Shown one piece after another: positions 18,974-34,811 of a stretch of DNA of 49,364 nt (its first letter is position 1; every line of letters starts with the position of its first letter). The stretch is taken from contig JAMOPL010000066.1 of assembly GCA_027064515.1 (NCBI GenBank), positions 1 through 49,364 on the forward strand, given 5' to 3'. Below the pieces are notes generated by a model that worked only from the letters and a program-made list of their open reading frames with translations, ran no database searches and had not been told where the DNA came from. The stretch is from Sulfurimonas sp. (lineage in GTDB: Bacteria > Campylobacterota > Campylobacteria > Campylobacterales > Sulfurimonadaceae). The position numbers and the translations under genes are program-made.

Positions 18974-21394
18974 ATGGATGAATTTCAAGAAATATTACAA
19001 GATTTTTTAATTGAATCTTTTGAACTTATAGAGCAATTGGATCATGATTTAGTTGAGTTGGAATCTACACCTGAAGATTTAGAGTTATTAAATGGAATTT
19101 TCCGTGTTGCACATACTGTTAAGGGTGCTTCATCATTTTTAAATTTTGATGTTTTAACACACTTGACACATCATATGGAAGATGTGCTAAATAAAGCTAG
19201 GCATGGTGATTTGCTTATTACACCTGATGTTATGGATGTTATTTTAGAATCTGTTGATTTAATGAAAGCACTTTTAGAAACTATTCGTGATACTAGTGCA
19301 GATTCTGGAATTGATGTAGCTGATTGTGTAGCAAAATTAGATAAGTGTAGTGGTGGAGATGGTAAAGTTGATACTCCTGTCGTAGTTGAGACTCCAGTTG
19401 TTAAAGAGGTATCAGAGGTTGTAGAAGTTGAAGCAGAAGATGAAGATGAGTTAGATTATGATAGTATGGATGCTGATGAGATTGAAGCAGAGATAGAGAG
19501 ACTATTAAATACTCGTCAAGAGGAAGATAAGGCAAAAAGAGCAGCTAAAATAGCATCTGGTGAAGCTGTTCCAAGTGCTCCATCAGTGATAGATGAAACA
19601 CCAAAAGAGGAATCAAAGCCACAAGAAACACCAAAAGAGGAGCCAAAACCAACTCCTACTCAAGCTCCTGTACCAGTTAAGCCAACTTCAGCACCAAGCA
19701 AAGATACAAAAGATGATGCGAAAGCTGCAGCACCTGTAAAAAAAGCTCCAGCACCAGTTGAGCAAACAATTCGTGTTGATGTAAAAAGACTGGATCATTT
19801 AATGAATCTTATTGGTGAGCTTGTTCTTGCTAAAAATAGACTTATTAAAATAAATGATGATGTTGAAGAGAGATATGAGGGTGAAGAGTTTTTAGAGGAG
19901 CTAAATCAAGTAGTTTCTATTGTTTCTCTTGTTACAACTGATCTTCAAATCGCTGTAATGAAAACAAGAATGTTACCAATTGGAAAAGTTTTCAATAAAT
20001 TTCCTAGAATGATTCGTGATTTAACTCGTGAACTAAATAAGCAGATAGAACTAGAAATTTCTGGTGAAGACACAGAGCTTGATAAATCGATAGTTGAAGT
20101 TATTGGTGATCCTTTAGTTCATATTATCCGTAACTCTTGTGATCATGGTATTGAGATGCCAGCTGATCGTGTTGCTGCTGGTAAAGAGGAGATGGGAACT
20201 ATTAAGCTAAAAGCGTATAATGAAGGAAATGCTATTGTTATTCAGATTGATGATGATGGTAAGGGTCTTGATGCTGATATGCTTAAAAATAAATCATTAG
20301 AAAAAGGGATTATAACAGAAAAAGAAGCCGATTCTATGAGCGATAAAGAGGCTTTTACTCTTATCTTTAAACCAGGTTTTTCAACAGCTGCACAGGTAAC
20401 AAATGTATCTGGTCGTGGTGTTGGTATGGATGTTGTAAAAACAAATATTGAAAAATTAAATGGTATTATTGATATTGAGAGTGAAATTGGTGTTGGAACT
20501 TCATTAAAATTAAAGATTCCATTAACACTTGCAATTATTCAAGCACTTCTTGTTGGGGTTCAAGAGGAACATTATGCTATCCCATTAGCTTCTGTTCTAG
20601 AGACAGTTAGAATCTCTCAAGATGAGATATATACAGTTGAGAATCGTTCTGTTATGAGACTTAGAGATGAAGTTTTATCTTTAGTTCATATAGGTGATAT
20701 TTTTGAAGTTGAAAGAATCTTAGATTCTAGTGAACATGCTTATGTAGTTGTTTTAGGATTAGGTTCAAGTAAACTTGGTTTAATAGTAGATACTCTTATT
20801 GGTCAAGAGGAGATTGTAATTAAATCCCTTGGTGAATATTTAAAAGGTATAGAGGGAATTGCTGGGGCTACTATTAGAGGTGATGGTGGTGTTACATTAA
20901 TTGTTGATGTGGCAGCTCTTATGCAGATGGCAAGAGGTGTAAAAGCTTCAGTTGTAAATGAAGTAAATAATAGTGCAAAGCTTACTAATGAAAAATCAAA
21001 AGCTAGTGATTACAAAGTGATGATAGTTGATGATTCTAAAACAGATAGAATGATAATGAGAAAAGCATTAGAGCCATTAGGTATAACACTTGTAGAAGCA
21101 AATGATGGGCAAGAAGCACTAAATACTCTAAAATCTGGTGAACATAATTTTGATGCGATGCTTATAGATATTGAGATGCCAAGAATGGATGGTTATTCAC
21201 TTGCTGGTGAGATTAAAAAATATAATAAATATAAAAATCTTCCACTAATTGCTGTTACATCTCGTACTGGTAAGGCTGATAGAATGAGAGGTGTTGAATC
21301 TGGAATGGTTGAATACATAACTAAGCCATATTCTGCTGACTACCTATCTAGTGTAGTTCAGAGAAATGTTAATTTTAAATCGGAGTTTTTATAA
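18974..21394 (+). CDS. cheA: Chemotaxis histidine kinase CheA with C-terminal receiver domain
   Basis: HPt VAHTVKGASSFLNF, LMNLIGELVLAKNRL, HIIRNSCDHGIEMP, FSTAAQVTNVSGRGVGMDVV, receiver IVDDSKTDRMIMRKAL...LIDIEMPRMDG. Confidence 0.97.
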   Translation: MDEFQEILQDFLIESFELIEQLDHDLVELESTPEDLELLNGIFRVAHTVKGASSFLNFDVLTHLTHHMEDVLNKARHGDLLITPDVMDVILESVDLMKALLETIRDTSADSGIDVADCVAKLDKCSGGDGKVDTPVVVETPVVKEVSEVVEVEAEDEDELDYDSMDADEIEAEIERLLNTRQEEDKAKRAAKIASGEAVPSAPSVIDETPKEESKPQETPKEEPKPTPTQAPVPVKPTSAPSKDTKDDAKAAAPVKKAPAPVEQTIRVDVKRLDHLMNLIGELVLAKNRLIKINDDVEERYEGEEFLEELNQVVSIVSLVTTDLQIAVMKTRMLPIGKVFNKFPRMIRDLTRELNKQIELEISGEDTELDKSIVEVIGDPLVHIIRNSCDHGIEMPADRVAAGKEEMGTIKLKAYNEGNAIVIQIDDDGKGLDADMLKNKSLEKGIITEKEADSMSDKEAFTLIFKPGFSTAAQVTNVSGRGVGMDVVKTNIEKLNGIIDIESEIGVGTSLKLKIPLTLAIIQALLVGVQEEHYAIPLASVLETVRISQDEIYTVENRSVMRLRDEVLSLVHIGDIFEVERILDSSEHAYVVVLGLGSSKLGLIVDTLIGQEEIVIKSLGEYLKGIEGIAGATIRGDGGVTLIVDVAALMQMARGVKASVVNEVNNSAKLTNEKSKASDYKVMIVDDSKTDRMIMRKALEPLGITLVEANDGQEALNTLKSGEHNFDAMLIDIEMPRMDGYSLAGEIKKYNKYKNLPLIAVTSRTGKADRMRGVESGMVEYITKPYSADYLSSVVQRNVNFKSEFL

Positions 21395-21888
21395 TGAGTG
21401 ATAAATTAAAACAGATTATTAATAAACAAAATCAGAAAGCTACTGAAGAGGTTGATCACTCTGATGAAATTGTTCAATTAGTTGGATTTATTATTGGAGA
21501 GGAGGAGTATGCTGTTCCAATTTTAAGTATTCAAGAGATTATTAAACCTATTGGTTGGACAAGAGTTCCTCAAACTCCACAATATATACTTGGTGTATTT
21601 AACCTTCGTGGATCAGTAATACCTCTTATAGATCTTCGTGTTAAATTTGGTTTAAGTGCTAAGAATCATAATGAAGAGACAAGATTTTTTGTACTTAAAC
21701 AGGGTGATGAAGTTGCTGGTTTTGTTATAGATAGATTAACAATGGCGATTAGAATTAACAAGGGTGATATAGGTCCAGCACCTGATACAATAGATTCAGA
21801 TGATAGTATGATAGAGGGTGTTGGCAAGCAAGAGGGAAGAATCCTAACTATACTAAAAGTGAATAAACTTTTAGAAAGAGATTTTTAG
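21394..21888 (+). CDS. cheW: Chemotaxis adaptor CheW
   Basis: LVGFIIGEEEYAVPILSIQEIIKP...VPQTPQYILGVFNLRGSVIPLIDLR. Confidence 0.95.
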   Translation: MSDKLKQIINKQNQKATEEVDHSDEIVQLVGFIIGEEEYAVPILSIQEIIKPIGWTRVPQTPQYILGVFNLRGSVIPLIDLRVKFGLSAKNHNEETRFFVLKQGDEVAGFVIDRLTMAIRINKGDIGPAPDTIDSDDSMIEGVGKQEGRILTILKVNKLLERDF

Positions 21889-25308: not shown

Positions 25309-26582
25309 TACTAGAGAGTGAATATAAACAAAGAAGAGAGATTTTAGCAAGTAAGTTATCTAAAAATAGTGTAGCAGTTATATATAGTGCAGAGTATAAG
25401 ATTCGCTCAAATGATACAGAATTTCCATATAGACAAAATAGTAATTTTTATTATCTAACTGGTTTTAAAGAGGATAACTCTTGTTTAGTTATTATTAAAA
25501 AGAGGAAAAAAACTAAAACTATTTTATTTATTCAAAAAAAAGACCCTAAACTTGAGTTATGGAATGGGGCTAGATTAGGTAAAGTTGAAGCAAAAAAAAG
25601 ATTTTTGGTTGATAAAATTTGTTTTATAGAAACTTTTTCTAAAAAAATAGAGGAGTTGTTGGAATCTTCATTAAATTTATATTTTGATTTTAAATTAGAT
25701 TATTCAAAAATAAAAATAATTAAAAAATACTCTAAAAAAATTGCTACATATAAAAATATAGCCTTAGATATAGAGATGATGAGATTAATAAAATCAGATT
25801 CTGAGATAGATTTAATTGAAAAAGCTATAAGCATAACAAAAAAAGCACATCATTTAGTGATGAAATCAAAAAAGATAGATAAAAACGAGTATCAATTACA
25901 AGCAGAAATAGAGTATATTTTTAAAAAGAATGGAGCATATAGTGATGCTTATACATCTATTGTAGCTAGTGGTAACTCTGCCAATACTTTACATTATATA
26001 GATAATGATAAAGAGTTTAAAGACGATGATTTGATACTTATTGATGCTGGTTGTGAGTATAATTATTATGCTAGTGATATAACTAGAACAATACCAGTTA
26101 ATGGTAAGTTCAGTGATGCTCAAAAAGAGCTTTATAATATGGTTTTAGATGTTCAATTAAAGATTATAAATATGATTAAGCCTAATATTAAACGGAGTGA
26201 TTTGCAAACTAAATCAGAAGAATTATTATGTAAGGGGATGATAGATTTAGGTATTTTAAAAGGTGAATGTAAACAGCTTTTAAAAGATAAAAAACATAAA
26301 AAATATTATCCACATGGGATAGGGCATTGGATGGGCATAGATGTTCATGATGAGAATCCTTATAAGTATAAAAATGGAGATGAGATTCCTCTTCAAAAAG
26401 GGATGGTTTTAACAATAGAACCTGGAATATATTGTAATAAAAATGATAAAACTATACCTAAAAAATATCGTGGAATTGGGATTAGAATTGAAGATGATAT
26501 ATTGATAAATGAAGATTCTTATATAAATTTATCTAAGGGGATAGTCAAAAGTGTTAAAGAGATAGAAAAACTATCTCTTTAA
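25305..26582 (+). CDS. pepP: Xaa-Pro aminopeptidase
   Basis: M24 metallopeptidase motifs: GCEYNYYASDITRTIPVNG, HGIGHWMGIDVHD, GMVLTIEPGIY, GIGIRIEDD. TTG start overlapping upstream TGA. Confidence 0.92.
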   Translation: MILESEYKQRREILASKLSKNSVAVIYSAEYKIRSNDTEFPYRQNSNFYYLTGFKEDNSCLVIIKKRKKTKTILFIQKKDPKLELWNGARLGKVEAKKRFLVDKICFIETFSKKIEELLESSLNLYFDFKLDYSKIKIIKKYSKKIATYKNIALDIEMMRLIKSDSEIDLIEKAISITKKAHHLVMKSKKIDKNEYQLQAEIEYIFKKNGAYSDAYTSIVASGNSANTLHYIDNDKEFKDDDLILIDAGCEYNYYASDITRTIPVNGKFSDAQKELYNMVLDVQLKIINMIKPNIKRSDLQTKSEELLCKGMIDLGILKGECKQLLKDKKHKKYYPHGIGHWMGIDVHDENPYKYKNGDEIPLQKGMVLTIEPGIYCNKNDKTIPKKYRGIGIRIEDDILINEDSYINLSKGIVKSVKEIEKLSL

Positions 26583-26584
26583 CA
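26552..26584. terminator. Strong hairpin shared by convergent pepP and the nap operon
   Basis: TGTTAAAGAGATAG-AAAAA-CTATCTCTTTAACA, a 14-bp perfect stem (26552-26565 / 26571-26584) covering the pepP 3' codons and stop. Confidence 0.75.
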
Positions 26585-26588
26585 TAAA

Positions 26589-27020
26589 CTAGTTGTAGCT
26601 ATAACTCCAGCCAGTTAGTTTTTCATTTTTTGCTTCAAAAAAGTTTTCAGAATCTGCTAAAAAATCCATAACATGCATCACAGCATAAGGGATACTTTTT
26701 TGGTCTTCTGGTTTTACAAGAAGTAAAGGCATAGGAGTATCTTGCTGACTCATAGAAAATCCAACAGGCATTAGCTGACTCATAACTTCGATAGGGTTAG
26801 TAATCTTATTTTCATCAAGAAATTTATCTAAAATAGCATCTTTAATATCTTGAGAAAATTTATCTTCAGTATTTAAAAAGATAGTAAAGTGGATAGGATT
26901 ATTTTTAAAATGTGATGGAGCTGGTGCAGCTAATATTATATATTCCACATTTGCCAGATGTTTTTTTATCTCATCTGGCTCAAAATACTTATCTGTTACA
27001 ATAGCATTGGCTACTTTCAT
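26589..27020 (-). CDS. Uncharacterised protein at the distal end of the nap operon
   Basis: 143 aa ORF immediately following the upstream ORF; no family recognised by eye. Confidence 0.7.
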   Translation of the reverse strand: MKVANAIVTDKYFEPDEIKKHLANVEYIILAAPAPSHFKNNPIHFTIFLNTEDKFSQDIKDAILDKFLDENKITNPIEVMSQLMPVGFSMSQQDTPMPLLLVKPEDQKSIPYAVMHVMDFLADSENFFEAKNEKLTGWSYSYN

Positions 27021-27320
27021 TTATACTTTATCTTCTTCTACAATAGGAGTTACTTTTTGACCAGTTTCCTCTTCTATCTCAGTTCTATGCTCAGCCATTT
27101 TTACACGAATCTCATCCATAGCTTGTTCTGGTACATCACCATCTTTTAGCCATTTGACTTCATCAATATTTCCACCGTAATCATCACCAAACTCTTGAAC
27201 TTTTTTAGAAAATTCTTCTAAATCTTTACAGTTTGTTAATCTTCCATCAGTCATATCTTGAAGTTCTATATACCACATCAAATCATCCATCTTGATTCTT
27301 GCTTCAAATACTACTGCCAT
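27021..27320 (-). CDS. Uncharacterised small acidic protein in the nap operon
   Basis: 99 aa ORF 3 nt downstream of napD; no family recognised by eye. Confidence 0.7.
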   Translation of the reverse strand: MAVVFEARIKMDDLMWYIELQDMTDGRLTNCKDLEEFSKKVQEFGDDYGGNIDEVKWLKDGDVPEQAMDEIRVKMAEHRTEIEEETGQKVTPIVEEDKV

Positions 27321-27323
27321 CTT

Positions 27324-27728
27324 TTACTCTTCTCTCTGTTTTGCTGAATCAAACTCTTTTGTAAAGGCAAGTAAATCTTCTCTTTTTTTCAAGTCACCAT
27401 TGTAGCCAACTCTATCAATATTTACTTTTTGAGCATCAGCTTGTAGTATTTTAGGTACAGCATCACGATTGTTAATCACTTCCATATGCTCATCTAATTC
27501 ATCTTCACTGTAAGCCATTTGCATATCAGCAGATATAACATGAGGGATAGCTTCAACAACTCTAAGTTTCTCTAACTCTTCACCAACACCTTTACCTTCA
27601 ATTGTGATAATAACTCTACCTTTCTCATCATGTAGATGATAATCACATACTTCACAATCTTTTAAGCTTTGTGCAACTTCTTCAACATATTTTGGTAAAC
27701 ATTGAACTACTATACTTGATACATTCAT
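27324..27728 (-). CDS. napD: NapD-like nitrate reductase chaperone
   Basis: NVSSIVVQCLPKYVEEVAQSLKDCEVCDYHLHDEKGRVIITIEGKG... matches NapD pattern; nap operon context. Confidence 0.82.
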   Translation of the reverse strand: MNVSSIVVQCLPKYVEEVAQSLKDCEVCDYHLHDEKGRVIITIEGKGVGEELEKLRVVEAIPHVISADMQMAYSEDELDEHMEVINNRDAVPKILQADAQKVNIDRVGYNGDLKKREDLLAFTKEFDSAKQREE

Positions 27729-27740
27729 AAAATTTTCCTT

Positions 27741-28184
27741 TTATTCGTAAATTACTTTTCTTATATTTTCGTTACTTTTTTCTCTCATTTGATCATATAA
27801 TTTTTGAGATTCTAGTTTGTCTTCGTAAGAGATAGGTGTTCTTAGTGATTTATACTCAACTAACTCACCATCTTTATAAACACCAGATATTATGGCATAA
27901 ACCCAGTAAAAACCCTTATCTTTTCTTAGATTTTTAACAAAACCTTTCCACTGTTTTTCATTTTTTAGGGTTTCCCATAAATCGCTAAAGGCAACCTTTG
28001 GCATATCTGGATGCCTAACAATATTATGTGATTTTCCTATTAATTCATCTTCACTATATCCACTAATCTCACAAAATGTTTCATTTGCATATGTTATTAA
28101 ACCTTGTAAGTTCGTTCTTGATATAATTAACTCATTCTCTGGAACTTCAGTTTCTATAAAAAATTCACTCTCTTTATAAACCAT
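27741..28184 (-). CDS. Stand-alone Aer/CetB-type PAS domain protein
   Basis: ANETFCEISGYSEDELIGKSHNIVRHPDMPKVAFSDLWETLKNEKQWKGFVKNLRKDKGFYWVYA...EYKSLRTP, closely resembling the E. coli Aer PAS domain; no TM, HAMP or signalling domain. Confidence 0.88.
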   Translation of the reverse strand: MVYKESEFFIETEVPENELIISRTNLQGLITYANETFCEISGYSEDELIGKSHNIVRHPDMPKVAFSDLWETLKNEKQWKGFVKNLRKDKGFYWVYAIISGVYKDGELVEYKSLRTPISYEDKLESQKLYDQMREKSNENIRKVIYE

Positions 28185-28193
28185 TTTAAACCT

Positions 28194-29138
28194 TTATTTA
28201 ATTTTATAATAGTTGATTGTTTTTTCATCAGATGAAACAAAAAACTCATTCTCATTTTTAAACAGTATATTTGTGAGTGTAATTTTATTACCACCAAATA
28301 CACCTATTGTTGATTTAGTATTTGTTTTAAACAGTGTTACATCATTATTCTCATTACTTGCATAACCTACTATTTTACCACTTGGAGATAAACCGACAGC
28401 ATATATCATAAATGATGAAATTTTGTAGTAAGCAGAATTGGCATCATATACCACAACTCTTCTATCCTGTCCAGCAGTAGCAATGATACCGTTTTTTGTA
28501 TCTACTCTAAAAACATTATCAAGATTCTCACCTGAGAGAGTTTTTAGATGTTTACCATCTCTTGTATTTATTATCTGAAGATCTCCACTCTCATCAGCTA
28601 CTATAACTTTATCTTTTTTTTCAGTAAGTACGAAATCTGAAAATTTTGATAGTGAAGCTTGCACACTCCAATTCTCTTTTTTTGTTCTAATATTATAAGA
28701 TACAATATCATTACTCAAGAGACCTAAAATAACATTATCTTTATCTAAAAATTTTGCTTTAGCAATATAGAGATGTTTAGAAGTAGGTATAACTAAATTT
28801 AGTTTTTTATTTTTATATATATGGATTCTTCTAGCACCACCTTTACCTAGAGATAAAACTAGAATCTCATCTTTTAATTTATCAACAGAGTAAATCTTAG
28901 AATCTATCTCATCACCCATAAAATCTTTGATTTTAGTTACAGATATTTTTTCTATAATTTTTTTGCTTTTTATATCAAAAATATCTATACAACTAGCAGA
29001 TGTTGCAGCATAAAGTTTGTCTTCATCTATTATCATATCGATAACAGCTCCATCAGCTATATATTGATCGGTTGGCTTTTGAATAGTAGTTGCAAATAAT
29101 GTTATATTAAACAGGATTATTGCTAGTAATAATTTCAT
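28194..29138 (-). CDS. napL: NapL-like periplasmic beta-propeller protein
   Basis: Signal peptide, WD/PQQ-like repeats, nap operon position between napF and napD. Confidence 0.8.
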   Translation of the reverse strand: MKLLLAIILFNITLFATTIQKPTDQYIADGAVIDMIIDEDKLYAATSASCIDIFDIKSKKIIEKISVTKIKDFMGDEIDSKIYSVDKLKDEILVLSLGKGGARRIHIYKNKKLNLVIPTSKHLYIAKAKFLDKDNVILGLLSNDIVSYNIRTKKENWSVQASLSKFSDFVLTEKKDKVIVADESGDLQIINTRDGKHLKTLSGENLDNVFRVDTKNGIIATAGQDRRVVVYDANSAYYKISSFMIYAVGLSPSGKIVGYASNENNDVTLFKTNTKSTIGVFGGNKITLTNILFKNENEFFVSSDEKTINYYKIK

Positions 29139-29640
29139 CTTTTTCCTTTTCTTTTGTTTTTATTTCTATCGCAAGAGTAGGACATCTACTAATGCAAAAC
29201 CCACATGAAGTACATTTTTCCATATTTATAGTTGGCATAAACATAGCTTTAAACTCTATGGCATCCTCAAAACATGGGTCTTTACAGGAGAAGCACATAA
29301 TACCTTTCCAACTCATACAGTTTGATTTATTTATAATGATATCTAAACCAAGTAACTGTTTATCTTCTATATTGAGAACATCTGACTTACAAGCAATTGC
29401 ACAATCATCGCAATATGTACATCCACTCGAATTTAAGTCAATTTTAGGGGTTTTATCTTCAGATATAATAATTATATGCTCTTGACAAGAAGTGGCACAT
29501 AAACCGTCACAGTTTTGACACTCTCTACCAAAGGCATCTATATCATTATAATAAGGTGGTCTTGTTATAGGTAAAGTTTTTTCTCTCTTTTCACCCTTGA
29601 TGGATGAAGAGAGAAAGCTAAAAAGCTCTCTTCTCTGCAT
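29107..29640 (-). CDS. napF: NapF-like ferredoxin
   Basis: MQRRELFSFL start; clusters of Cys in several [4Fe-4S]-type motifs (CTYCDDCAIAC, CTSCGFCISRCP). Confidence 0.85.
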   Translation of the reverse strand: MQRRELFSFLSSSIKGEKREKTLPITRPPYYNDIDAFGRECQNCDGLCATSCQEHIIIISEDKTPKIDLNSSGCTYCDDCAIACKSDVLNIEDKQLLGLDIIINKSNCMSWKGIMCFSCKDPCFEDAIEFKAMFMPTINMEKCTSCGFCISRCPTLAIEIKTKEKEKDEIITSNNPV

Positions 29641-29643
29641 ATA

Positions 29644-30297
29644 CTACTTACTACTTTCGAAAGTATTGATACCTTCCATTAGTTTAGTACCATTCCAACT
29701 TGATTGTGAAGCACCATTCTTTTTAGTATAATCTGCTTCAAAGTTATTTTCAACATTCAATGCACCCTTAGTTTGAGGAGCATGACATTGAGAACAGTTG
29801 AATCTAGCACCAACAAGTTTATCTTGTTTTTGAATAGATACATGTGCTAACTTTTCACTTGAAGTATTTTCACCTTTAATAGCATAAGAGCTAGTTGGTC
29901 TAAAGTTTGTGAAGTGTGATGATGGAATTGGAGTTGCACCTATACCACCCTCAGCAGCAGCCTTTGGCATATGACAGCTTAAACATTGATTATCACCAAT
30001 TTTAATAGGTAATAAGCCAGTTGTGTCATGTGGTATCATTGGTGGAGCATCTTGGAATGCTCTTTTTATTTTGAAACCACTTCCTGTATAACCATCATTA
30101 TAGTTAGTTTTAACTGGAACTAAATTTTCATCATATAATGTTTTCTTTCTTAAACCTAAAGAATTTTCATTAATTGTAGGTTTAATCACCTGCTTTTTTA
30201 CTGGAGCAGTAGCTTCAGATTTTGCACTTTCACTACATCCAACAAATAGTAGTGTAGCAGTAGCTAAACCAATTGTTATTTTACTAATTATTTTCAT
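29644..30297 (-). CDS. napB: Periplasmic nitrate reductase cytochrome subunit NapB
   Basis: Two haem motifs CLSCH and CSQCH; signal sequence with LLFVGCSES; nap context. Confidence 0.9.
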   Translation of the reverse strand: MKIISKITIGLATATLLFVGCSESAKSEATAPVKKQVIKPTINENSLGLRKKTLYDENLVPVKTNYNDGYTGSGFKIKRAFQDAPPMIPHDTTGLLPIKIGDNQCLSCHMPKAAAEGGIGATPIPSSHFTNFRPTSSYAIKGENTSSEKLAHVSIQKQDKLVGARFNCSQCHAPQTKGALNVENNFEADYTKKNGASQSSWNGTKLMEGINTFESSK

Positions 30298-30298
30298 T

Positions 30299-31129
30299 TC
30301 ACTCTCCCGTTTTCTTTTTCTTTGCCATATTTCTTATAGAAAATTCTAAGGCATCATCATCACATACTTCGATACATCTAGCACAGTTTGTACATTCACC
30401 AGAAAGTACAGGTAGGCTCTCTTTACCTATCATATGTAATACTTGATTCTCAGGGCAAACATTTTTACATTTCATACATAAAGTACAGTTTTCTTCATTA
30501 TGCTGTACTCTAATAAGACTAAATTTTCCTAAAAGTGAATAAAATCCACCTAGTGGGCAGATATGTCCACACCATCCATTTTTTAGTACAAATAGGTCAA
30601 AAAGAAAAATTATAACCATTACTGACCAACCAAATCCTAAACCAAACACAATTCCTCTATGAACCATAGATATAGGAGATACAAACTCAAATGCAGCTAC
30701 ACCTAGCAAATATGATAAAATTAAACTAAGTGCTAAAACCCAGTATCGTATATTACGAGAGGCTGGTTGTTTAACACCTTTGATTTTATCCATACCTATT
30801 TTTCTTCTTGTAAAATTAGCTAAATCTGTAACCATATTGATGGGACAAACCCAACTACAAAAGGCACGACCACCAATCAAAAGATAGAAAACAGTTGCAA
30901 CTGCTACACCAATAAGAAGGTCGGTAGCCATAGCTGCACCAGCAAATAACATTTGCAAAGCAGCATAAGGATCACTCATTGGGATAACATTGAAAATTTT
31001 AGATGAACTAAGATTGCCCATAAGCATAGTCCATCCCCAAGCATTAGCACCAAAATAAAGAACTAAAATACTAATTTGAGTGAATCTTCTTAAAATAAGA
31101 TATCTGTAATTATTCCATAGCTTTGCCAT
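30299..31129 (-). CDS. napH: Quinol dehydrogenase membrane component NapH
   Basis: Polytopic; CSWVCPINMVTDL, CGHICPLGGFYSLLG, C-terminal ferredoxin clusters CTLCMKCKNVCP and CTNCARCIEVC. Confidence 0.94.
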   Translation of the reverse strand: MAKLWNNYRYLILRRFTQISILVLYFGANAWGWTMLMGNLSSSKIFNVIPMSDPYAALQMLFAGAAMATDLLIGVAVATVFYLLIGGRAFCSWVCPINMVTDLANFTRRKIGMDKIKGVKQPASRNIRYWVLALSLILSYLLGVAAFEFVSPISMVHRGIVFGLGFGWSVMVIIFLFDLFVLKNGWCGHICPLGGFYSLLGKFSLIRVQHNEENCTLCMKCKNVCPENQVLHMIGKESLPVLSGECTNCARCIEVCDDDALEFSIRNMAKKKKTGE

Positions 31130-31947
31130 TAGTATAAATCCTCCAGATTATTATTTAAAGAGTCAATTGCACTCTCTTTACTTAATTCAGTGGTTGTTTT
31201 AATCTCTTTAGCATTTTCTAAACGCTTTTCATCATTTTTATCCCAACCCTTAATATAGTAATCACCAGCTTTACCAGTTGCCGTTTCACGAGGAAGGACA
31301 AATATAGCAGGTTTTTCAGTTACACAAGCATGTTCACATAAACCACATCCAGTACAAGCATCAGCATGTATAACGGGTCTTAGAAAAGCATGTTTACCAG
31401 TTCTTTCATTTTTTATATACTCAACTGTTATAGCACTTCCAAGAATTGGACAAGCTCTATAACAAGCATCACATTGGATACCCCAAAATGCGATACAACT
31501 TTCTTTATCAATTATAGCCAATCCCATATCAGCGATGTTTATATCTAATTTATCGTCAGTTGTTACACTAGACTCATCTAATGCACCAGTAGGACATACT
31601 GGTACACAAGGTATATCTGGACACATATAACAAGGAACTTCTCTAGGAACAAAATAAGGTGTTCCTAGAGGTTTGTGATCACCAGGTTTAGCAAGTAGAA
31701 GTGTATCGTAAGGACAAGCTTCAACACATAGCCCACATTTGATACAAGTTTTTAAAAAATCATCCTCTTTTATAGCCCCAGGTGGTCTCAGAAGTAATTG
31801 TGAAGCCGTAGCCTCATCAATATATGCACTCCATATAAAACCACTTATGGTAGCAAGACCTACGCCTCTAGCCATATTTAAAATAAATTTTCTTCTGTCA
31901 CTTAACGGTTGTTTATTTTTCATTTTTTTAGGTCTGTTTTCGCTCAA
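31129..31947 (-). CDS. napG: Ferredoxin-type protein NapG
   Basis: Tat-type SDRRKFILNMARGVG; four Fe-S Cys clusters (CIKCGLCVEACP, CYMCPDIPCVPVCP, CDACYRACP, CTGCGLCEHAC). Confidence 0.94.
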   Translation of the reverse strand: MSENRPKKMKNKQPLSDRRKFILNMARGVGLATISGFIWSAYIDEATASQLLLRPPGAIKEDDFLKTCIKCGLCVEACPYDTLLLAKPGDHKPLGTPYFVPREVPCYMCPDIPCVPVCPTGALDESSVTTDDKLDINIADMGLAIIDKESCIAFWGIQCDACYRACPILGSAITVEYIKNERTGKHAFLRPVIHADACTGCGLCEHACVTEKPAIFVLPRETATGKAGDYYIKGWDKNDEKRLENAKEIKTTTELSKESAIDSLNNNLEDLY

Positions 31948-31976: not shown

Positions 31977-34811
31977 TTATGCTTTGTAAATTCTTACAGC
32001 ACATTTTTTGTAGTCAGTCTGTTTTGACTGAGGACAAGTTGCATCTAAACATACTTTATTGATGAATACTTTTTCATCAAACCATGGAACAAATACAAGT
32101 GAACGAGGTGGTCTATTTCTACCACGAGTTTCAACATGTGCTTTTACTCTACCACGACGAGATTCAACCCAACAAAGTTCACCTTGTTTAAGCCCTTTAT
32201 CTTTCGCTGTTTGTGGATGCATATAACATAATGCTTCTGGTACTGCACGGAAAAGTTCAGGTACACGCATAGTCATAGTTCCAGAGTGCCAGTGTTCAAG
32301 TACACGACCTGTACATAACCAAGTATCATAATCTTTATCTGGTACTTCTGGTGGCTCCATATAAGGTCTAGCAAAGATTTTTGCTTTATTTTTAAGAGAT
32401 TTTTTCTTTTTATCTGTGATTCCCATTAAATTACCTTGAGTTAAGGCTTTTGCAAGAGGACCATAGAATGCATGAGTTGAACCATTACCAGATTTAGCTA
32501 CTGCTTTAGCTGCATAAGGATCATATTTAGCATTAAATCTCCATTGAGTTTCTTTACCATCAACAACTGGCCATTTAAGTCCACGAACTTTATGATAAGT
32601 AGTAAAGTCAGCTAAATCGTGACCATGACCACGACCAAATGAAGCATACTCTTCCCATAGGTATTCATGAACCATAAATCCACAACCTTTAACAACTTTA
32701 CCATCACCACCAGTTACATTTCTACTATCACCATTACAGTCAGAGTTATCATAACCTTTTTGAGGGAATGAGTTTAAGTCAATTTTATATTGCTTAGCTC
32801 TTTCATTTGCATAAAGAATCTCGTACATAGTAGTGTCATCAGTGTAGCCCATTTTGTGTGCAGCATCACGAACATCAGCAAGTTTTTTACCATTTCTTAG
32901 TGTGTATGGACCCCATACATCTTTTACAGTAAAGCGTTTTGAAAGTTCCATCCATTGCCATGTGTCACTCATTGCATCACCAACTGGTAAAACTTGTTGT
33001 CTCCAGTGTTGAGAACGACGCTCAGCATTACCGTAAGCACCCCATTTTTCATAAATCATTGCAGATGGAAGAACAAGGTCAGATACCATAGCAGAGATAC
33101 CAGGATAACCATCAGATGTTACAATAAAGTTATCCATCTCTCTTGCAGCTTTAATCCAGTGAGTAGCAGATGCTGAATCTTGGTAAGCATTACAAACATT
33201 TACCCATGCAAATTTTACAATACCATCTTCAATATCACGGTGAATTTTCATGATATGTTGGTTACCAACAGGATTTAGAGTTCCGTGTGGAATTTTCCAT
33301 CCATCTTCAGTATGTTTTCTATGCTTAGGATTCTTAACCATCATATCAGCTGGTAAACGGTGACAGAATGTACCAACTTCACGAGCAGTACCACATGCTG
33401 AAGGTTGACCAGTTAGTGAGAATGCTCCAGAACCTGGAAGTGCTTGTTTATTTAACATAAAGTGAACATTGTAAGAAAGTGTATTTACCCATGTACCACG
33501 AGTATGTTGATTCATCCCCATTGTCCAGAAAGATACTACTTTTCTACCTTTTTCAATATATAAATCAGCTAAAGTTTGAAGTTTCTTTTTGAACTCTTCA
33601 ATATCTTCATCTGGATCACCCTTAGATACTTTTGCTACATAATCAAGAGTATATGGATCTAGGAATTTTTTATACTCTTCAAAAGAGATTTCCCAGTGTT
33701 TTAAACCAGCAGGTTTATTCACCATTTTATCACCAGCTTTGTAACCATAAGGTTTTAATGCAGGTGCTTCATTTTCAGATACAACATGTACCATCTCATG
33801 ATTAATAGTTTCCATCTCTGCTGCACTATATTTACCAGCAGAACCATCAGCTCTTACAGGCATAAGAGATTTCTCTCCAGCTCTTCTTAAACCATAACCC
33901 ATATTTACAGGACTTGCTGCAAAAATGATATTTTTCTTTAAAAAGTCCCAATCAATAGCATCAGGATTATTATAAACGATTTCACGAGCGATGTAGTTCC
34001 ACATTGCAAGGTCAGAGTTTGGTGTAAAGATGATTTCAATATCAGCTAAATCTGAAGTTCTATGTCTATAAGTTGACATATTGATAACTTTTACACGATC
34101 TGGATCAGAAAGTTTTCTATCAGTTACACGAGACCAAAGGATCGGGTGCATCTCTGCCATATTTGAACCCCAAGATACAACAGTATCAGTAAGTTCGATA
34201 TCATCATAACAACCAGAAGGTTCATCAATACCAAAAGTTTGGTAGAAACCAACAACTGCAGAAGCCATACAATGACGAGCATTAGGATCAATAGCATTTG
34301 AACGGAATCCACCTTTCATCATCTTTTGAGCTGCATAACCTTCCATAATTGTATATTGTCCAGATGCAAATACTGCTACACCCTCAGGACCTTTTTCTTT
34401 TAATGCTTTACGGATATTAAGTTCCATCTCATCAAAAGCTCTTTCCCAAGTTACAGGAGCAAATTTACCTTTCTTGTCAAAGTTACCATTTGAATCTTGA
34501 CGAAGTAAAGGTGTAGTAAGTCTATCTGCACCATACATAATCTTAGCATTAAAATAACCTTTAATACAGTTTAGACCACGATTTACTGGGTGAGCTGGAT
34601 CTCCCTTAACGGCAACAATTTTACCATTTTTTGTAGCCATCATGATACCACAACCAGTACCACAGAAACGACAAGCTGCCTTATCCCATCTCCAACTACC
34701 TTCAGCTTCAGTTGCTGCTGCTTCTAACTCTGCTGGTACACTCATACCAACAGCTGCTGCTGCAGATGCTGCTGCTGAACTTTTTAGAAATTCTCTTCTT
34801 GAAAGTGACAT
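31977..34811 (-). CDS. napA: Periplasmic nitrate reductase catalytic subunit NapA
   Basis: Tat signal [53 protein letters not shown]; 944 aa molybdoenzyme; RBS AGGAG. Confidence 0.97.

Follow-up and report, generated by a model that had tools for sequence, protein, structure and literature searches.

The stretch of DNA analysed here (the window; 49,364 nucleotides of a Sulfurimonas sp. contig) carries a nap operon, encoded wholly on the minus strand, with the gene order napA-napG-napH-napB-napF-napL-PAS-napD-orf99-orf143. The PAS gene (27741..28184, ATG start; hereafter nap-PAS) encodes a 147-aa Aer-type PAS protein. A preliminary description of this DNA had noted such a reading frame between napL and napD without giving its strand; we confirmed it and placed it on the minus strand. 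Upstream of nap-PAS lies napL (28194..29138), a beta-propeller protein gene recognized by matches to beta-propeller families, position and synteny, and downstream lies napD (27324..27728), encoding the NapA-specific chaperone (Pfam NapD, E = 3.6e-21). The catalytic subunit gene napA (31977..34811), napG (31129..31947), napH (30299..31129) and napB (29644..30297) were assigned by order and homology among nap loci, and napF (29107..29640), for a ferredoxin-type protein, by synteny and a match to TIGR00402 (E = 4.7e-19) that is below the cut-off of that family. The operon continues with two conserved unannotated genes: orf99 (27021..27320), a member in this clade without a significant family match, and orf143 (26589..27020), the last gene of the operon. 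A terminator-like hairpin with a 14-pair stem, a consensus match only, directly follows orf143 (26552..26584, minus strand).

Gaps of 9 nt (napL to nap-PAS) and 12 nt (nap-PAS to napD) separate the three genes, Shine-Dalgarno-like sequences precede nap-PAS (AAAGG) and napD (AAGGAA), and a consensus scan of the minus strand saw no terminator-like site between napL and napD. We noted that orf99 and orf143 come after napD in most Sulfurimonas-type nap operons, and that orf99 also occurs in Sulfurovum-type operons with a short nap-PAS and is absent from operons of the ribbon-helix-helix (RHH) type described below. A pair of chemotaxis genes, cheA (with a receiver domain) and cheW, is found at 18974–21888, approximately 5 kb past the end of the nap operon; che and nap clusters also lie near each other in several related genomes, with or without nap-PAS. 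A Sulfurimonas review and a 2026 review of Nap both describe the operon as napAGHBFLD, and a term search of their text found no PAS gene.

An Aer-type PAS domain and its putative flavin pocket

nap-PAS consists of a PAS core (approximately residues 20–117), a helix (residues 120–136) and a C-terminal strand motif, R-K-V-I-Y, and its AlphaFold model has a mean pLDDT of 90.3. The preliminary description had likened the protein to the FAD-binding PAS domain of E. coli Aer and proposed a profile and structure comparison. That comparison bore the likeness out: nap-PAS matched Pfam PAS_3 (E = 1.1e-16), and its best match among solved structures was the Aer PAS domain (8dik, E = 1.3e-31). When the predicted fold of a longer ortholog was searched with Foldseek, 8dik was again the best match (TM 0.91 over the target); the matches listed cover the PAS part only, with Aer, NifL and MmoS at the top in that order.

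In the Aer crystal structure, H53, R57, W70, N85 and R115 contact FAD, and the substitution S28G helps to stabilize the domain (PMC9668731). nap-PAS of the window has all five contact residues at identical numbers and a native glycine at position 28, hence the likeness extends to residue numbering. All orthologs of the tree set have H53, R57, H58, D60, W70, N85 and R115. Since the five contact residues are conserved, nap-PAS is predicted to be a likely FAD-binding protein.

Occurrence in nap operons and descent

We compared 80 nap loci fetched from the same family and 40 from other families, in which Nap genes were recognized by homology to the proteins of the window. The nap operon contains nap-PAS at 45 of the 81 family loci, counting the window, and at 10 of 39 from other families. 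Three other families have a nap-linked nap-PAS (f7, f8 and f10), and none was found among the compared nap loci of f2, f3, f4, f5, f9 and f11. Of the two recurrent arrangements, napL-PAS-napD prevails in the window's genus and is shared by some near genera; the remaining loci have napL-napD-PAS. Within the genus, and with NapD as a proxy for the presence of Nap, nap-PAS is in the operon in 30 of 50 Nap-positive genomes and anywhere in 0 of 8 Nap-negative genomes (one-sided Fisher p = 0.0016, not corrected for phylogeny). One NapD-negative genome, from a different genus (G061), also gave a match, which a contig end truncates. When named species were scanned, the operon with nap-PAS turned up in MAGs labelled Nitratiruptor, Sulfurospirillaceae, Sulfurovum, Sulfurimonas, Persephonella, Hydrogenothermaceae and Aquificota. 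nap-PAS thus behaves as a gene of the nap operon, with a recurrent place there and absence where Nap is absent, and its recurrence in nap operons is far beyond chance. The occurrence sporadic and unlinked to nap that would have spoken against the preliminary description was not what the survey of nap loci returned, because nap-PAS is nap-linked in several families. It is nonetheless dispensable for Nap, since 20 of the 50 Nap-positive congeners have no nap-PAS in the operon.

Eleven Aer-type PAS stretches are encoded in the window's genome, and the paralog nearest to nap-PAS shares 52% identity with it. Matches in 59 genomes separated cleanly into orthologs (at least 58% identity, at least 183 bits) and paralogs (at most 54%, at most 157 bits). 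A FastTree phylogeny of the PAS core groups the orthologs in a single long-stemmed clade (support 0.81) that excludes both the CetB-like proteins found in other Campylobacterota and the paralogs fused to MCPs in the window's genome. Across nap-linked loci, nap-PAS is 57–79% identical to that of the window, and NapL approximately 27–63%. nap-PAS is under purifying selection (dN/dS 0.06–0.20), also in the genomes without CheW and MCP described below, where dN/dS is 0.08 for G020 versus G096 and 0.20 for the g10 pair (few changes); chemotactic pairs gave 0.06–0.13, and the pair G066-G106 (g7) was saturated.

Some orthologs do not adjoin nap, including both long, RHH-bearing ones (f11) and short ones of a Sulfurovum type. 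The latter subfamily (L222, L225, L229, L230, L251 and others) has a different short tail and lies outside nap in varying neighbourhoods. Among the non-nap orthologs we found no common neighbour other than a small ack/gap-type neighbourhood in one clade, and the remainder are scattered.

Chemotaxis genes and the C-terminal domain of long orthologs

The preliminary description had proposed that nap-PAS couples Nap to energy taxis, perhaps through a receptor encoded elsewhere. Such a CetB-type sensor would dock on a CetA-like MCP and pass a Nap-linked redox signal to swimming. nap-PAS does share its domain family with Aer and CetB and is a stand-alone PAS protein with a C-terminal helix, as are known partners of MCPs, namely CetB of C. 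jejuni (PMC3558505) and CetB2 of Magnetospirillum (PMC12442639). The window's genome would also offer a chemotaxis pathway to signal into, having 14 MCP matches, FlhA and the cheA-cheW cluster inside the window. However, five genomes from three lineages (G020, G066, G106, G101 and G069) keep nap-PAS and have no match to a CheW domain, a search that would also reveal CheA, or to an MCP signalling domain. All five are 99–100% complete, and G101 and G069 are single-contig; CheW and MCP were both present in the 43 other genomes searched. FlhA is absent from four of the five and kept in G020, and the FAD residues of nap-PAS are all intact in these chemotaxis-free genomes. Moreover, the window's nap operon has no gene for a CetA-like HAMP-MCP partner, and the neighbours in related loci are nap genes.

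Because nap-PAS is kept in genomes without CheW or MCP, MCP signalling cannot be its conserved function, and energy taxis as a conserved role is not supported; the separation of the nap-PAS clade, on its long stem, from CetB-like paralogs also weighs against it, as does the C-terminal end of the long forms described below. MCP signalling could be an added function in motile species such as that of the window. Overall, we regard a taxis sensor as an unlikely account of nap-PAS. We also noted that G020 (locus L196) is a 1.3-Mb, 99% complete genome of the window's genus that has flhA but is without a CheW domain or MCP. Separately, G101 and G069 keep several other stand-alone Aer/CetB-like PAS proteins in the absence of chemotaxis genes, which suggests non-taxis partners for these proteins too.

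Long orthologs, found in f8, f10, f11, some genera of f1 and MAGs of Aquificota, are approximately 172–190 aa in length (up to 208 aa with uncertain starts). After the PAS domain and the linker helix, they carry an R-x-V-x-Y motif followed by two helices with a turn between them. When 25 C-terminal ends were compared with Pfam, the recurrent matches were RHH_1 (six members), RHH_5 (six) and RHH_3 (five), with best scores of 9.6e-6 for RHH_3 and 5.4e-5 for RHH_1. A profile search of the PDB with C-terminal ends gave HP0222 (0.0017), AvtR (0.0078) and ORF56 (0.079) among the best matches; those ranked above them were designed repeat proteins, none with any one stretch that reached significance. 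Scanned as full-length single sequences, the long orthologs score modestly against RHH families, under the Pfam cut-offs, and the C-terminal pieces alone score better. The AlphaFold model of a long form comprises the PAS domain, a helix at 119–136 and helices at 148–160 and 165–175, with a strand-helix-helix end and pLDDT values of approximately 90–97 in the C-terminal helices. Consistent with an association with nap, 28 of 34 RHH-bearing loci in the named-species scan are nap-linked.

The long orthologs have a strand-helix-helix domain and the window protein does not. The window form and its clade end right after the strand, and AlphaFold models the tail after the linker helix as coil with lower confidence. 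Intermediate forms (L175, L268 and L276) retain the strand and the beginning of the first helix, and all forms share the R and Y of the strand motif with little or no variation. We set aside the idea that the short form is a sequencing or frameshift artefact, as a length of 147–150 aa recurs in tens of species, usually approximately 10–30 nt from napD. Judging from its sequence, direct DNA binding by the window's short protein is unlikely because it is without the RHH helices.

The graded truncation, from a full RHH domain through the partial forms to the strand only, might instead be read together with the frequent absence of nap-PAS as the decay of a former PAS-RHH regulator that no longer has an output and is being lost. 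We consider this very improbable given the low dN/dS, the invariant FAD residues and conserved C-terminal strand, the tight place in the operon and a length kept across tens of species.

A proposed nap-dedicated redox sensor and its relation to known systems

The recurrence of nap-PAS in nap operons, its retention without chemotaxis and the putative DNA-binding domain in deeper lineages together indicate that nap-PAS probably regulates nitrate respiration rather than swimming. Operon regulation, which the preliminary description had offered as the alternative to taxis, is thus the part of its proposal that the RHH-bearing orthologs favour, as judged from sequences and models. We are fairly confident that nap-PAS is a sensor dedicated to nap and that MCP taxis is not its conserved role. 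It would be a cytoplasmic flavin redox sensor, given its predicted FAD binding. We lean slightly towards an ancestor that was a PAS-RHH regulator with predicted DNA binding, composed of an FAD-binding Aer-type PAS domain, a helical linker and a C-terminal RHH domain. Its output would have been an RHH dimer on DNA, with the gene lying within the nap operon that it probably controlled. The lineage of the window (Sulfurimonas and near genera) would have lost both RHH helices while keeping the PAS domain, linker helix and R-x-V-x-Y strand. As these parts are kept without the RHH helices, the short form would most likely report redox by contact with a nap-specific protein partner; that the contacted protein is a nap regulator is a tentative proposal, which we hold with less than even confidence. 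The combined reading, a nap-dedicated flavin redox sensor derived from a PAS-RHH one-component regulator and working without chemotaxis, we would give an even chance. A dyad search of the DNA upstream of napA, which included few regions from PAS-positive Sulfurimonadaceae, brought out FNR-like dyads only and no RHH operator. Dyads of this kind (TTGAC-N4-GTCAA and TTGAT-N4-ATCAA) recur upstream of napA in related operons (L142, L254, L238, L200 and others).

Alternatively, nap-PAS might act on Nap post-translationally, the flavin PAS binding NapD, NapH or NapF so that redox gates the maturation, export or quinol oxidation of NapA. Nap-linked nap-PAS adjoins napD, lying either directly behind it or between it and napL, its short form is without DNA-binding helices, and the neighbouring NapL, NapD and NapF have been assigned to maturation in a review (PMC13223375). 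Yet many species have the same operon without nap-PAS, the RHH domain of the long forms points to DNA, and orthologs exist away from nap. We therefore hold such a Nap factor to be rather unlikely, if marginally less so than a taxis sensor.

In vent and redoxcline Campylobacterota, nitrate enters respiration mainly through Nap of the napAGHBFLD type, and how this Nap is tuned to redox is, to our knowledge, poorly known. If the proposal of a dedicated flavin sensor is true, redox control of nap becomes testable. The retention of nap-PAS in chemotaxis-free genomes is also a warning that a stand-alone 'aerotaxis' PAS need not concern taxis. More speculatively, one-component regulators in which an Aer-type FAD-PAS is joined to an RHH domain may form a new class of flavin redox sensors that control the periplasmic respiration of nitrate in both Campylobacterota and Aquificota. 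A derived branch in Sulfurimonas would have dropped the DNA-binding helices and would signal via a nap-specific partner, and Aer/CetB-type PAS proteins would thus have a use outside chemotaxis; we find this broader claim plausible but somewhat short of even. Searches of the open-access literature for a PAS-RHH redox regulator, for PAS with the nap operon and for napL with PAS found nothing relevant. Novelty is provisional, since these searches covered open-access and not subscription papers.

nap-PAS resembles the E. coli Aer PAS domain (8dik) in fold and in having H53, R57, W70, N85 and R115 at identical positions, and its native G28 corresponds to the substitution that stabilized Aer. Unlike Aer, it has no HAMP domain, membrane anchor or signalling domain, is linked to nap, and bears an RHH domain in its long forms. 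As a stand-alone cytoplasmic Aer-type PAS protein with a C-terminal helix, it is similar to CetB and CetC of Campylobacter and to CetB2 of Magnetospirillum. Whereas CetB is encoded alongside a CetA receptor, no receptor gene adjoins nap-PAS, which falls in a clade of its own and is retained in genomes that have neither MCP nor CheW. In reading redox through a flavin PAS to control a metabolic operon, as we infer for nap-PAS, it would be comparable to NifL and MmoS, the next-best fold matches after Aer for the long form; these are large multidomain proteins, whereas nap-PAS is PAS only or PAS-RHH. Lastly, the long orthologs end in a strand and two helices that can be aligned with the RHH proteins HP0222, AvtR, ORF56 and CopG, but in these orthologs the RHH domain is joined to a flavin PAS, and the window's form is without the helices.
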